From Hydrogenophaga sp. (GTDB taxonomy: Bacteria > Pseudomonadota > Gammaproteobacteria > Burkholderiales > Burkholderiaceae_C): a stretch of 64,000 nt of DNA. The notes under the pieces are model-generated. The model did no database searches. It was not told where the DNA came from and was given only the letters and a program-made list of their open reading frames with translations. The position numbers were made by a program, and so were the translations under genes. Below are positions 5,307 through 46,391 of this stretch, in pieces. Numbering within the stretch: the stretch's first letter is position 1; each line of letters opens with the position of its first letter. The DNA lies in the NCBI RefSeq assembly GCF_030373225.1, contig NZ_JAUCZG010000019.1, positions 1 to 64,000 on the forward strand, written 5' to 3'.

Positions 5307-8300
5307 TCAGTTCAGGTGGGGGCTCAGCAGGCCGGCGATCTCGAACATGGTCACTTGCGGCTTGCCGAACACCGCCGCCAGCTTGGCGTCGGCATTGACG
5401 CGGCGCTTGTCGCCCGCGTCCTGCAGGCCGTTGGCCTTGATGTAGTCCCACAGCTTTTTCACCACCTCGGGACGCGAGACGGCACCCTCGCCGATCACCG
5501 CGGCCAGCTCAGCGCTGGGCTGTTTCCCGGTGGCGGCGGTGGTTTTGCGCGGGGCCTTGGGTGCTTTCACGGCGGGCGTCTTCTTCGCAGCCGCCTTTTT
5601 GGCGGGCGCGGCCTTGGCCGCCACCTTCTTCGCCGGTGCGCCGGCGGCCGTCTTGCGTGGCGGGAACTTGGACGGTGCGAACTCGAAGTTCACCTTGCCG
5701 GCTTCCTTGTCCCAGGCCAGGAAAGCCTTGAACGCGCGGCGCGTGCGCATGGAGACGAACTTGTCGAGCAAATCCGTCTTGCCGGTCTCCAGCAGCTTGC
5801 TCATCTGCTCGCGCGCCACGGGCTGCTGCAGGATGATCTTGCCGCTCTTGAAATCGCAGCTCGGCGTGGGCTGCTGCTCGGTGGGCACGGAGCGCACACA
5901 AACATAGTTGGCGCCGTGCTCGTGCACCGCGCCGCCACACTTGGGGCAGGCGCCCAGCGGCTCGCTGGCGCTGAAGTCCACCAGCTCGCCGGTTTCCTCG
6001 CCCTTCCTGTCGTCACCAAAGTCGAATTCGAGCTTCCAGTTCTTGTCGTCCTCGCTGTACTTGAGCACGATCTCGGCCACGAAAGGCCAACCCGCCTTGG
6101 AGCGAAAGCCATCGAGCGGGCCGATCTTCTTGTCGCGCAGCAGCTGTTCGGACTCGTCCGGCTCGAAAGTGCGGCCCGCGGGCGACTTGCCAAACGAGAA
6201 GCCGCAGCCTTCGCTGGCGCCGTCCTTGCCGGTGCAGCTGTAGCGGCGGTAGTTCTCCTTCACCACGCCGCCGCAGTTGGGGCAAGGCGTGGCAAGCGTG
6301 GCGTAGTTGCCCGGGATGGTGTCGCGGTCGTACTCCTTGGCCTTCTTCACCATGCGCTCGGTCATCTGCGCAATCTCGGCCATGAAGGCGCTCCGGCTGA
6401 GCTTGCCGTGCTCCATCTGCGCGAGCTTGTATTCCCACTCGCCCGTGAGCTCGGCCTTGGAGAGTTCTTCCACGCCCAGGCCGCGCAGCAGTGTCATGAG
6501 CTGGAAAGCCTTGGCCGTGGGGATGATCTCGCGGCCTTCACGGAACATGTACTTTTCGGTCAACAAGCCTTCGATGGTGGCCGCTCGCGTGGCGGGCGTG
6601 CCCAGGCCTTTTTCCTGCATCGCCTCGCGCAGTTCGTCGTCGTCGACCAGCTTGCCCGCGCCTTCCATGGCGCCGAGCAGCGTGGCTTCCGAGTAACGCG
6701 CGGGTGGCTTGGTCTTGAGGCCTCTGGGTTCCACCGACTCGGTGCGCACCGTCTCGCCTTCGCGCACCGGCACCAGGTTCTGTCCTTTGTCGCCCTCTTT
6801 GGCGTCGGTCACGTCTTCGGCAGCCTCCTTGCCATACACGGCCATCCAGCCCGGCTTCACCAGCACCTTGCCTTCGGTCTTGAAATGGTGGACAACGCGA
6901 GCCCCCACGCTCCCCACTGCGTGTGGTTCGCTGCCCCCCGAGGGGGCGTCTCCTTGCCTGGGGCGACCCGGCGCTGCGGAGATCGAGGTGATGCGGGTCG
7001 TGACCATGAACTCGGCCGACGGGAAGAACACCGCGAGGAAGCGGCGCACCACCAGGTCGTAGAGCTTCTGCTCGGCGTCGCTCAGGCCGCTGGGCGCCTG
7101 CAGCGTGGGAATGATGGCGAAGTGATCCGACACCTTGCTGTTGTCGAAGATGCGCTTGCTCGGGCGGATGTAGCCGTTGTTGAGTGCGGTCAGCGCGTGC
7201 GGCGCCAGATGCTTCATGCCGCTGTTGGCCAGCATCTCGAAGGTTTCCTTGACCGTAGGCAGGTAGTCCTCGGGCAGGGCGCGCGAATCGGTTCGCGGGT
7301 AGGTCAGCGCCTTGTGGCGCTCGTACAGGCTTTGCGCCAGCTGCAGCGTGGTCTTGGCCGAGAAGCCGAAGCGTCCGTTGGCCTCGCGCTGCAGGCTGGT
7401 GAGGTCGTACAGCAAGCCGCTGGCCTGCGTGGTGGGTTTGCTCTCATCCTTGACGCTGGCGGCCTTGCCGCGCACCGCGTCGGCAATGGCCAGGGCTTCA
7501 CGCTGGTTCCAGACGCGGTCGGCGCGCTGCTCCGGATCGGCATCATCGCCGGTGGGCTTCTTGAACGCCGGGTCGAACCATTTGCCCGGGTATTCGCCGG
7601 CCTCGGCCAGGAAGCTCGCGTGGATCTCCCAGTAATCGCGGCTGCGGTGGGCGCGGATCTTCTCTTCGCGCTCGACCACGATGGACAGCGTGGGCGTCTG
7701 CACACGGCCGACGGTGGTGAGGAAGAAACCGCCGTCGCGGGAGTTGAACGCCGTCATGGCGCGGGTGCCGTTGATGCCGACCATCCAGTCGGCCTCGGAC
7801 CGGCTGCGCGCGGCGTCGGCCAGGCCCTGCATCTGTTCGTTGGTGCGCAGGTGCTCGAAACCGTCGCGGATCGCCGCCGGTGTCATCGACTGCAGCCACA
7901 GGCGTTGCACCGGCTTGCCCAGGGACTGGTAGCTGCCGCCCTTCAAACCACCGGCGTATTGCTCGATCAGCCGGAAAATCAGTTCGCCCTCGCGGCCCGC
8001 ATCGCAGGCGTTGATGAGGCGCGCCACGTCCTTGCGTTTGGCCAGTTTCACCACCGCAGACAGACGCGACTTGGTCTTGTCGATCGGCTTGAGTTCAAAG
8101 TAAGGGGGCAGCACCGGCAGGTGGGCAAAGCTCCACTTGCCACGCTTGACGTCGAATTCTTCGGGCGCGGCGATCTCCACCAGGTGGCCGACGGCGGACG
8201 TGACCACGTACTGGTCGTTCTCGAAATGGTCGTCGTGCTTGTCGAACTTGCCCGCCACGGGGGTGAGCGCACGCACGATGTCCTGGGCCACAGACGGCTT

Positions 8301-8342
8301 CTCGGCAATGACCAGCGTTTTGGCTGAACCTTCAGTTTTCAT
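5307..8342 (-). CDS. topB: DNA topoisomerase III with C-terminal Lys/Ala-rich linker and SWIB domain
   Basis: MKTEGSAKTLVIAEKPSVAQDIVRAL (TOPRIM), YPRTDSRALPEDY, GLGTPATRAATIEGL, Zn-finger-like CPNCGG; C-terminus SAELAAVIGEGAVSRPEVVKKLWDYIKANGLQDAGDKRRVNADAKLAAVFGKPQVTMFEIAGLLSPHL matches the SWIB/MDM2 fold family. Confidence 0.93.
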   Translation of the reverse strand: MKTEGSAKTLVIAEKPSVAQDIVRALTPVAGKFDKHDDHFENDQYVVTSAVGHLVEIAAPEEFDVKRGKWSFAHLPVLPPYFELKPIDKTKSRLSAVVKLAKRKDVARLINACDAGREGELIFRLIEQYAGGLKGGSYQSLGKPVQRLWLQSMTPAAIRDGFEHLRTNEQMQGLADAARSRSEADWMVGINGTRAMTAFNSRDGGFFLTTVGRVQTPTLSIVVEREEKIRAHRSRDYWEIHASFLAEAGEYPGKWFDPAFKKPTGDDADPEQRADRVWNQREALAIADAVRGKAASVKDESKPTTQASGLLYDLTSLQREANGRFGFSAKTTLQLAQSLYERHKALTYPRTDSRALPEDYLPTVKETFEMLANSGMKHLAPHALTALNNGYIRPSKRIFDNSKVSDHFAIIPTLQAPSGLSDAEQKLYDLVVRRFLAVFFPSAEFMVTTRITSISAAPGRPRQGDAPSGGSEPHAVGSVGARVVHHFKTEGKVLVKPGWMAVYGKEAAEDVTDAKEGDKGQNLVPVREGETVRTESVEPRGLKTKPPARYSEATLLGAMEGAGKLVDDDELREAMQEKGLGTPATRAATIEGLLTEKYMFREGREIIPTAKAFQLMTLLRGLGVEELSKAELTGEWEYKLAQMEHGKLSRSAFMAEIAQMTERMVKKAKEYDRDTIPGNYATLATPCPNCGGVVKENYRRYSCTGKDGASEGCGFSFGKSPAGRTFEPDESEQLLRDKKIGPLDGFRSKAGWPFVAEIVLKYSEDDKNWKLEFDFGDDRKGEETGELVDFSASEPLGACPKCGGAVHEHGANYVCVRSVPTEQQPTPSCDFKSGKIILQQPVAREQMSKLLETGKTDLLDKFVSMRTRRAFKAFLAWDKEAGKVNFEFAPSKFPPRKTAAGAPAKKVAAKAAPAKKAAAKKTPAVKAPKAPRKTTAATGKQPSAELAAVIGEGAVSRPEVVKKLWDYIKANGLQDAGDKRRVNADAKLAAVFGKPQVTMFEIAGLLSPHLN
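6901..6980. repeat. GC-rich palindromic repeat inserted in-frame in topB
   Basis: GCCCCCACGCTCCCCACTGCGTGTGGTTCGCTGCCCCCCGAGGGGGCGTCTCCTTGCCTGGGGCGACCCGGCGCTGCGGA is clearly homologous to the 84-bp units at 43713..43955; hairpins CCAC/GTGG and CCCCC GAG GGGG. Confidence 0.85.
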
Positions 8343-8439
8343 CTCTACAATCAACTTTCCACGCGCGTGTACACGCGCACATGGGCACGCGCACACTCGC
8401 GCGCACCTGCATGAAACAACCTTACCAAATATTCCGGCC

Positions 8440-8979
8440 GTGACGAAAAGCCCCAGAAAGTCGAGTGCGCCCGCGGAAAAACCGTCGGCAGTGGCCAGGT
8501 CGAACGCTACCGGCCGACGCATCCAGACGCGCAAGTCCGGCGTGCACGGCCGCGGTGTTTTTGCCGTGGTTGACCTGGCCGAAGGTGAGACGCTCATTGA
8601 ATATGTGGGTGAGGTCATCACCTGGGACGAGGCCCTGCGTCGCCACCCGCACGACCCCGCCGATCCCAACCACACCTTCTATTTCCACATCGACGAAGGG
8701 CATGTGATCGATGCCAAGTTTGGTGGCAATTCCGCACGCTGGATCAACCACAGCTGTGCGCCGAACTGCGAGGCCGAGGTGGACGAGGGGCGCGTGTTCA
8801 TCCGTGCCCGTCGCAACATTCTGGCCGGCGAAGAGCTGTTCTACGACTACGGCCTGGTGATCGACGAGCCCTACACGCCCAAGCTCAAGGCCGAGTACCC
8901 GTGCTGGTGCGGCGCCAAAAAGTGCCGCGGCACCCTGCTCGCGCCCAAGCGTGCGGGTCGTTCATCCAGACTCGGCTGA
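8440..8979 (+). CDS. SET-domain protein-lysine N-methyltransferase-like protein
   Basis: GTG start; KSGVHGRGVFAVVDLAEGETLIEYVGEVI...NSARWINHSCAPNCEAEV...AGEELFYDYG...CWCGAKKCRGTLL (SET plus post-SET Cys motif). Confidence 0.92.
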   Translation: MTKSPRKSSAPAEKPSAVARSNATGRRIQTRKSGVHGRGVFAVVDLAEGETLIEYVGEVITWDEALRRHPHDPADPNHTFYFHIDEGHVIDAKFGGNSARWINHSCAPNCEAEVDEGRVFIRARRNILAGEELFYDYGLVIDEPYTPKLKAEYPCWCGAKKCRGTLLAPKRAGRSSRLG

Positions 8980-12808: not shown

Positions 12809-13901
<1,093 letters not shown>

Positions 13902-42736: not shown

Positions 42737-43318
42737 TCAGCTGGTGAAGCGGAACACGGCGGTGCTGGCCAGCAGGTTGGGCCAGCGGTGCACTTCTGCA
42801 CCTTCGTGCAGGCCGAAGCTCTTCTCGATGGTCAAACCGTTGCGCCGCGCCAGCACCTCGAAGTCGGCGTGCGTGCCGACCCGGATGTTGGGCGTGTCGT
42901 ACCACTGGAAGGGCAGCCGCTTGGTCACGGGCATGCGACCCTGCACCACCGCCAGCCGGTTGGGCCAGTGGGCGAAGTTGGGAAAGGCCACCACGCCGAT
43001 GCGACCCACGCGCGCGGTCTCGCGCAACATGGTCTCGGCATTGCGCAGGTGTTGCAGCGTGTCGATCTGCAGCACCACGTCGAAGGCGTTGTCGCCAAAG
43101 GTGTTCAGGCCGTCTTCGAGGTTGAGCTGCAGGACGTTCACACCACGCCTGAGGCAGGCCAGCACCTTGGCATCGTCGATCTCCACGCCGTAGCCGCTGC
43201 AGGCACGCGTGCTCTGCAGGTGGGCCAGCATCGCACCGTCGCCGCAACCCAGGTCGAGCACGCGCGAACCGGGCGGCACCAGGCGTGCGATCGATTCCAT
43301 GATGGCCTGCTCGCTCAT
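42737..43318 (-). CDS. metW: Methionine biosynthesis protein MetW
   Basis: [21 protein letters not shown]...[42 protein letters not shown]...FPNFAHW; overlaps metX. Confidence 0.95.
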
Positions 43319-44718
43319 GTCAGCCCCCGCGCGATGGTGTGATCAAAGTAGGCGCGCACTGCGCTCAGGTAGCGCGGGTCGTCGAGCAGGAAGGCGTCGT
43401 GCCCGTGGGGTGCATCGATCTCGGCGTAGCTCACGTCGCGCCGGTTTTCCAGCAGGGCCTCGACGATTTCGCGGCTTCGCCTGGGCGAGAAGCGCCAGTC
43501 GGTGGTGAAGCTCACCAGCAGAAAGCGGGCCTGCGCCCTGGACAGCGCCGCACTCAGGCTGCCCCCGTGCTCGCGCGCGGGGTCGAAGTAGTCGAGCGCG
43601 CGCGTGATCAGCAGATAGGTGTTGGCGTCAAAGTATTCACTGAACTTGTCGCCCTGGTAACGCAGGTAGCTCTCGATCTGGAACTCGACGTCCTGTGTCG
43701 TGTATCTGTACCCCCCCGCTTCGCGTGGTCCGCTGCCCCCCGAGGGGGCTGACCCGCCTGGGGGCGGCCCGGCGGCGGGTCCGTTGCCCCCACGCTCCCC
43801 CGCTTCGCGTGGTCCGCTGCCCCCCGAGGGGGCTGACCCGCCTGGGGGCGGCCCGGCGGCGGGTCCGTTGCCCCCACGCTCCCCCGCTTCGCGTGGTCCG
43901 CTGCCCCCCGAGGGGGCTGACCCGCCTTGGGGCGGCCCGGCGGCGGGTCTGGCCTCTGCAAGCGCCGCCTGCTCCAGCTCGGCCGGCTTCAGGCTGCGGC
44001 CGAATTTTTCGTTCATCACGTCGTCGCTGAGATACGTGATGTGGCCGATCATGCGGGCGATGCGCAGGCCGCGCCGGGGCAGGGTGTTGTGCCTGAGGTA
44101 GTGGCCGCCGTGGAAATCGGGATCGGTCACGATGGCGCGGCGCGCCACTTCGTTGAAGGCGATGTTCTCGGCCGTGAGGTTGGGTGCGCTGGCCACCACC
44201 ACCGCGTGTCGAACCCGGTCCGGGTATTGCAGGGTCCAGCTCAGGGTCTGCATGCCGCCCAGGCTGCCGCCCATCACGGCCGCCAGCGTCTGGATGCCCA
44301 TGACGTCCAGCAAACGGGCCTGCGCGTTCACCCAGTCCTCGACCGTGACCACGGGAAAGTCCGCGCCCCAGGGCTCACCCGTCTGCGGATGCCTGTGGGT
44401 CGGGCCGGTGGAGCCGAAACACGAGCCCAGGTTGTTCACGCCGATCACGAAGAAACGGTCGGTGTCCACCGGCTTGCCGGGGCCGATCATGTTGTTCCAC
44501 CAGCCCTCGCTGCGTGCCACAGGCCGGCCCTGTTCGTCGGCGTGCCAGCCGGCCACATGGTGGGAGGCATTGAGCGCATGGCAGATCAGCACCGCGTTGG
44601 AGCGATCGGCGTTCAAGGTGCCATAGGTCTCCACCACCAGCTCGTAGGCAGGCAGGCAGGCGCCGCTTCGCAATGGCAGCGGTTCGGCGAATCGGTACGT
44701 TTGGGGCGTGACGATCAA
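43315..44718 (-). CDS. metX: Homoserine O-acyltransferase MetX carrying an insertion of about 80 aa of tandem repeats
   Basis: [92 protein letters not shown]; start codon uncertain (TTG 44718 or GTG 44712). Confidence 0.93.
43713..43955. repeat. Tandem array of three ~84-bp GC-rich palindromic units in-frame within metX
   Basis: Units begin at 43713, 43797 and 43881, period 84 bp = 28 codons: CCCCCGCTTCGCGTGGTCCGCTGCCCCCCGAGGGGGCTGACCCGCCTGGGGGCGGCCCGGCGGCGGGTCCGTTGCCCCCACGCT; encodes repeated [28 protein letters not shown]. Confidence 0.95.
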
Positions 44719-44746
44719 TCTGGTGTCCTGTGGGCGCTGCGCGCCC

Positions 44747-44784
44747 GAAAAAAATCCCGGTACCGCCAAGAGCGAGACCGGGAT
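44747..44784 (-). terminator. Intrinsic terminator in the metX leader (riboswitch expression platform)
   Basis: Minus strand ATCCCGGTCTCGCTCTTGGCGGTACCGGGATTTTTTTC: stem ATCCCGGT/ACCGGGAT plus T7. Confidence 0.88.
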
Positions 44785-45953: not shown

Positions 45954-46391
45954 ATGGGCAACAAACTGTACGTTGGCAATCTGCCATACACCGTCCGCGA
46001 CGAAGACCTGCAACAAGCATTCAGCGCCTATGGCTCTGTCAACAGCGCCAAGGTCATGATGGAGCGCGACACCGGTCGTTCCAAGGGTTTCGGCTTTGTC
46101 GAAATGGGCAACGACGCCGAAGCGCAGGCCGCTGTTGAAGGCATGAACGGCCAGTCCCTGGGCGGTCGCAGCCTGGTGGTGAACGAAGCCCGTCCGATGG
46201 AAGCCCGTCCTCCCCGCAGCGGTGGTGGCGGCTTCGGCGGCGGTGGTGGTCGCAGCGGTGGTGGCGGCTACGGCGGTGGCGGTGGTGGCGGCGGCAGCGA
46301 CGGCGGCTTCCGCAGCCCCTACGGTGGTGGCGGCGGTGGCGGTGGCCGTCGTGAAGGTGGTGGCGGCGGCGGCGGCCGTGGCGGCTACTGA
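45954..46391 (+). CDS. Glycine-rich RRM RNA-binding protein
   Basis: KLYVGNLPYTVRDEDLQQAFSAYGSVNSAKVMMERDTGRSKGFGFVEM (RNP2/RNP1) plus C-terminal Gly/Arg-rich tail. Confidence 0.95.
   Translation: MGNKLYVGNLPYTVRDEDLQQAFSAYGSVNSAKVMMERDTGRSKGFGFVEMGNDAEAQAAVEGMNGQSLGGRSLVVNEARPMEARPPRSGGGGFGGGGGRSGGGGYGGGGGGGGSDGGFRSPYGGGGGGGGRREGGGGGGGRGGY

Follow-up and report, generated by a model that had tools for sequence, protein, structure and literature searches.

The locus studied here raises the question of how a tandem repeat came to lie in frame inside metX and what it means for the protein. It is located in 64,000 nucleotides of Hydrogenophaga sp. DNA (contig NZ_JAUCZG010000019.1, positions 1 to 64,000, assembly GCF_030373225.1), and this whole stretch is called the window. 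A sequence-only reading of the window had described three tandem 84-bp units in metX and had proposed a REP-type palindrome that also encodes protein, as in Rickettsia. Most known protein-coding palindromic repeats come from Rickettsia or from a small number of species rich in REPs.

The metX Gene and Its Internal Array

The host assembly consists of 52 contigs and 4.02 Mb. The metX copy at 43315..44769 is the sole one in the genome. The gene, the units of the array and the hairpins of one unit are as follows.

43315..44769, minus strand: metX (homoserine O-succinyltransferase type), insert-bearing; 484 codons when the listed TTG is taken as the start
43713..43796, minus strand: element unit of 84 bp, last in the coding direction, without the terminal AGCGTGGGG that relatives have ahead of the TAC codon
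43797..43880, minus strand: element unit, same as the 43713 unit (84/84), containing the spacer AACG and the 3' end AGCGTGGGGGC
43881..43949, minus strand: partial element unit of approximately 69 bp (profile positions 15-84), first in the coding direction, CCCCAAGG (Gln) form
43751..43781, no strand: hairpin 1 of the first window unit, GACCCGCC...GGCGGGTC, covarying stem, recurring every 84 bp
43735..43749, no strand: hairpin 2, GCCCCC CGA GGGGGC, nearly invariant between copies, recurring every 84 bp

As had been read from the sequence, the ORF is uninterrupted by a stop across the array and is metX. With the succinyl-type MetX model it scored 636.6 bits, above the cut-off of 560. The score against the acetyl-type model was 443.8 bits, under the cut-off of 500, and is an example of how such inserts can lower standard-model scores. 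The MetX family model matched on either side of the insert, and S169, D424, and H457, which we take to be the active-site triad, were invariant across the ortholog alignment. The closest relatives of the window's MetX were Hydrogenophaga records.

Tandem Repeats Finder gave a period of 84 with 99% matches at 43713-43949, in agreement with the exact period and near-zero divergence first described. The tandem array is real but holds 2.8 copies rather than three, the third unit being partial. The one substitution that had been noticed in this third unit (43881) was found at position 43928 (G to T), and no other internal one is present. A 23-base core of the unit had four matches in the window compared to zero expected by chance. 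The Gln form of the first coding unit is common to the MetX inserts of the genomes G046, G064, and G017, while the other two units are of the Pro form CCCCCAGG and identical to each other. Because its form is shared with the inserts of these relatives, the Gln unit probably predates the rest of the array, and the two Pro units would have arisen by later duplication.

Structure of the Element

The ends of the element were placed from the flanks of its copies. These gave a conserved 3' end AGCGTGGGGGC, a two-hairpin core, and a 5' end that lies close to GATCC or its equivalents. Hairpin 1 occurs as GATCCGCC...GGCGGATC, GTTTCGCC...GGCGAAAC, and GACCCGCC...GGCGGGTC. In 35 aligned copies it was paired in 97.7% of cells, and both sides had changed in six of its eight pairs. 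The covariation score of the whole structure was 0.254 compared to 0.091 ± 0.011 in shuffles, and the signal was lost when the pairing partner was slid. The minimum free energy of one unit was no better than that of shuffles, since G+C-rich shuffles fold as well, and covariation was used instead. As hairpin 1 covaries strongly, the element is a real structured REP/RPE-like element. It had no match among Rfam models up to E = 5 and as a whole is not strictly palindromic. Of the two hairpins proposed for each unit, the one with the CCACGC...GCGTGG stem is a feature of a subtype only; the conserved stems are GACCCGCC...GGCGGGTC and GCCCCC-CGA-GGGGGC.

The spacer between units varies between arrays and is mostly constant inside one array. 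It is therefore probable that arrays lengthen when the element and a few flanking bases are duplicated locally. Local tandem duplication is also the best account of the metX array, as the sequence-only reading had held.

Copies in the Genome and Genus

A first search with the metX array as query found the element in 44 places in its own genome, and a single unit as query found copies in 65/65 Hydrogenophaga-like genomes. Other copies in the genome had been named as a check, and they are plentiful. With other units as queries, the own genome gave 61-67 matches and one relative as many as 71. The nearest copy to the window's unit outside metX was in the own genome (96% identity). The copies are dispersed and mostly intergenic. 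Intragenic arrays of the own genome all had periods that are multiples of three; two periods labelled intragenic, 85 and 89, were assigned from their coordinates to an intergenic array lying downstream. Among the 44 intergenic periods, 20 were not multiples of three. Contig ends were touched by 12 of the 44 first-search places, where the number of units in an array may be under-counted. Contig ends often lay within the repeat (G000 contigs C3, C4, C5, C8, C12, C13, C28, C31, C33, C42, C45, and C52), and the element is probably a main cause of assembly fragmentation.

Other Genes Carrying the Element in Frame

Forty-two element spans were first assessed by a codon model, protein families were then used for confirmation, and copies with a weak coding signal were not counted as intragenic. 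At least five in-frame hosts besides MetX were found in the own genome: topoisomerase III, acetoacetyl-CoA synthetase (AACS), an ABC transporter, salicylyl-CoA 5-hydroxylase, and a class II aldolase. The insert of the ABC transporter lies between Walker A and the following strand. Salicylyl-CoA 5-hydroxylase has two element sites. The two near-identical copies of its region (L154 and L025, on contigs C51 and C14) differ in how many element units they hold, and at the element the 5' flank of the C51 copy is also different, as if recombined there or mis-assembled.

Elsewhere in the window the element occurs once, in the topoisomerase III gene.

5307..8675, minus strand: topB ORF (DNA topoisomerase III); the listed start is too far upstream, and residue 118 is the first to match the family
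6901..6983, minus strand: element copy in frame in topB

Most relatives have an empty site here. Their topB is exactly 84 bp (28 codons) shorter, with near-identical flanking DNA on both sides and a flanking protein up to 99% identical. The element was seen in G017 topB as well. From unbroken matches, topB of G037, G007, and G042 is probably also element-bearing.

In acetoacetyl-CoA synthetase one loop was element-bearing in 11 of 26 species, in two reading frames and one orientation. In 4/26 species the same loop held, in frame, another repeat that is unrelated to the element (CGCCCTGAGCNTGTCGAAGG, read as RPEPVEG...LRQAQPER or a close form). This second repeat takes the place of the main element in G000, G016, and G011, and the two lie side by side in G022.

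L017 1099-1164: second repeat in acetoacetyl-CoA synthetase

A core of this second repeat with one mismatch was also seen at 13844-13860 of the window.

MetX Orthologs and the History of the Insert

MetX orthologs were sampled from 119 relatives and 80 loci. Non-metX copies of the own genome served to build a profile HMM, with which the loop DNA between MNEKFGR and FQIESYL was searched in 142 orthologs. Of these 142 Comamonadaceae loops, 27 had the element (E < 2e-3); it lay in one orientation in 14 of them and in the opposite one in 13. Inserts were present in Hydrogenophaga, Rhodoferax, Polaromonas, Acidovorax, and other relatives, with a number of units that varied among species. The reading frame was kept in all 142 loops. 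Within the own lineage, six relatives that the metX tree places in the same clade with strong support had no insert. Two outcomes that had been set against the sequence-only reading, an insert in every MetX ortholog and a frameshift, were thus not found. The insertion is not strain-specific, a point which had been raised, as many species have this loop filled, in two orientations. Some MetX loops resembled deletion remnants (KPADLEGGAWGYRYST).

In the genus metX tree the nine inserted rows were each apart from the others and required nine changes, and 20 changes were counted in the family tree, both trees being of one gene with modest support. Inserts of one orientation had common flanking residues and frame across species, and these did not follow the tree. 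Because inserts at the same site share flanks and frame across species, truly independent insertions are fewer than the tree changes. The non-tree-like flanks point to recombinational exchange of whole loop alleles.

Probable Tolerance of the Inserted Peptide

The element unit is without stops in five of six frames. Nearly all MetX inserts were in the frame APSGGS in one orientation or LPPEGA in the other, and not in the Arg- or Cys-rich alternatives. An AlphaFold2 model of MetX (42 sequences, mean pLDDT 66.7) had no secondary structure at residues 273-358, and pLDDT was around or below 40 over residues 275-357. This low-confidence stretch was flanked by helices at 262-272 and 359-372. Solved MetX structures have approximately seven residues at the position of the insert. 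The insert is therefore predicted to be a disordered segment in the loop joining two lid helices, and we infer that its peptide is a tolerated Gly/Pro/Ser/Ala linker.

Proposed Origin and Alternatives

The MetX insert is very probably a tandem array of a REP-like dispersed Hydrogenophaga/Comamonadaceae element which was tolerated after in-frame entry. The family is dispersed and has a covarying hairpin, it recurs in frame in MetX, AACS, and TopB, and relatives have empty sites. An element of approximately 80 bp with two hairpins and the fixed 3' end would have entered the MetX surface loop between the lid helices as one copy. Its survival would be owed to G+C-rich stop-free frames, a net length preserving the frame, and a peptide rich in Gly, Pro, Ser, and Ala. 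This disordered peptide would hang out as a loop and leave the enzyme undisturbed, an effect presumed neutral. One unit would then have become nearly three by local tandem duplication in steps of multiples of three bases, probably unit by unit. Movement was probably by a transposase acting in trans on the hairpin, and part of the spread between species may have occurred via recombination of whole loop alleles.

L195 1417-2166: lone Y1 (RAYT-like) transposase gene of the genome, upstream of a gltB-like gene

No element was found beside this gene in the 3.3 kb read around it. A RAYT was rejected as the mover, as there is only one Y1 transposase and it is without a nearby element.

Other explanations of the insert were weighed. 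A selected regulatory or interaction segment of MetX, such as a linker that tunes the lid, would fit the use of one loop and mostly the same two frames by many species, and also the intact catalytic residues. It was considered unlikely, as 115 of 142 orthologs are without the insert, close relatives included, unrelated enzymes contain the same peptide, and the number of units differs from species to species. The insert sequence also tracks the genomic repeat: that of G064 is 100% identical to another copy in G064, which is seemingly intergenic by its flanks. Loss of the insert from the product, by splicing after transcription or by ribosome bypass on the hairpins, was rejected because every MetX loop is in frame, and its probability is close to negligible. 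The mRNA does have G+C-rich hairpins, but open frames in 142/142 loops would be needless if the insert were skipped, and coding arrays hold to periods of three. An assembly artefact, whether repeat collapse or a mis-join, is very unlikely. The repeat does lie at the ends of many contigs and the duplicate gene on C51 has a differing 5' flank at an element, yet a single metX frame spans both flanks and orthologs have inserts at the same site in many independent assemblies.

A further alternative concerns history and is compatible with in-frame entry of a dispersed element. The species distribution could stem from just one or two ancient insertion events, after which homologous recombination spread the loop alleles; we consider this possible but somewhat short of an even chance. 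One-orientation flanks (KPADL...ARPAAGPPQ and FGRNLAPTLPAA...LLDAYRYST) are common to clades well separated by the rest of metX, and the TopB inserts of G000 and G017 have common flanks while closer relatives are empty. Speaking against it are the two orientations of the element at two positions in the MetX loop, genome-specific element subtypes in the inserts (G046, G064), the two reading frames of the same orientation in the AACS loop, and the different flanks in other genera. Repeated insertion and allele spread are probably both at work. More tentatively, and with the balance slightly against it, the loops of MetX, acetoacetyl-CoA synthetase, and TopB in Comamonadaceae might be standing landing sites for unrelated hairpin repeats, with alleles re-invaded, homogenised to the local subtype, and recombined between species. 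If so, a selfish DNA repeat would be a continuing supply of new disordered protein segments.

Relationship to Known Repeats

Rickettsia palindromic elements, described in part in the background of PMC3733652, occur in tens of copies, both intergenic and in frame within genes for conserved proteins at places tolerated by the fold. The present element is like them in being a short palindromic repeat with tens of copies, intergenic and in frame in conserved genes. It is unlike them in being very G+C-rich, in its free-living Burkholderiales host, in its tandem arrays and fixed 3' end, and in the recurrent filling of one loop across genera. The likeness is claimed for the mode of action only and not for sequence.

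GTAG/CGTC-tagged REPs also lie within conserved genes, often of DNA repair, where clusters encode tens of residues (Di Nocera et al. 2013, PMC3733652), and two Xanthomonas species have a REP at nearly the same site of recB (PMC3733652). The present element shares the position within conserved genes. It differs in its larger unit with two hairpins and in having no flanking RAYT gene. Neither GTAG nor CGTC was found in the 84-bp window unit (both strands) or in the family consensus. The element was rejected as a REP in the strict sense: the conserved palindromic stem is present, but the GTAG/CGTC tag and a RAYT flanked by repeats are not. In the broad sense it is REP-like, with many dispersed and mostly intergenic copies. 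The enterobacterial repeats RU-1, RU-2, and RU-3 are small mobile repeats which are reported to occur within genes as well and to be able to encode peptides (PMC2759123); they are MITE-like units of 103-168 bp in another host. As regards a possible MITE, inspection by eye showed no obvious target-site duplication in copy flanks or in the topB filled and empty pair.

The original proposal of a REP-type, RPE-like protein-coding palindrome is supported in substance. The element is dispersed, structured, and in frame elsewhere, but it is neither strictly palindromic nor a GTAG/CGTC REP. No published description of the repeat family was found in a literature search that missed most subscription journals and leaves absence unproven. 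The kind of repeat is known, from Rickettsia palindromic elements and intragenic REPs, while the family is new, as is its repeated occupation of the same enzyme loops in different genera. With the same enzyme loops refilled and sister species empty in a common free-living bacterial family, the element offers a natural experiment on repeats becoming protein. A small RNA-binding protein encoded in the window also has Gly-rich repeats in its tail (46215-46385), and these looked ordinary.
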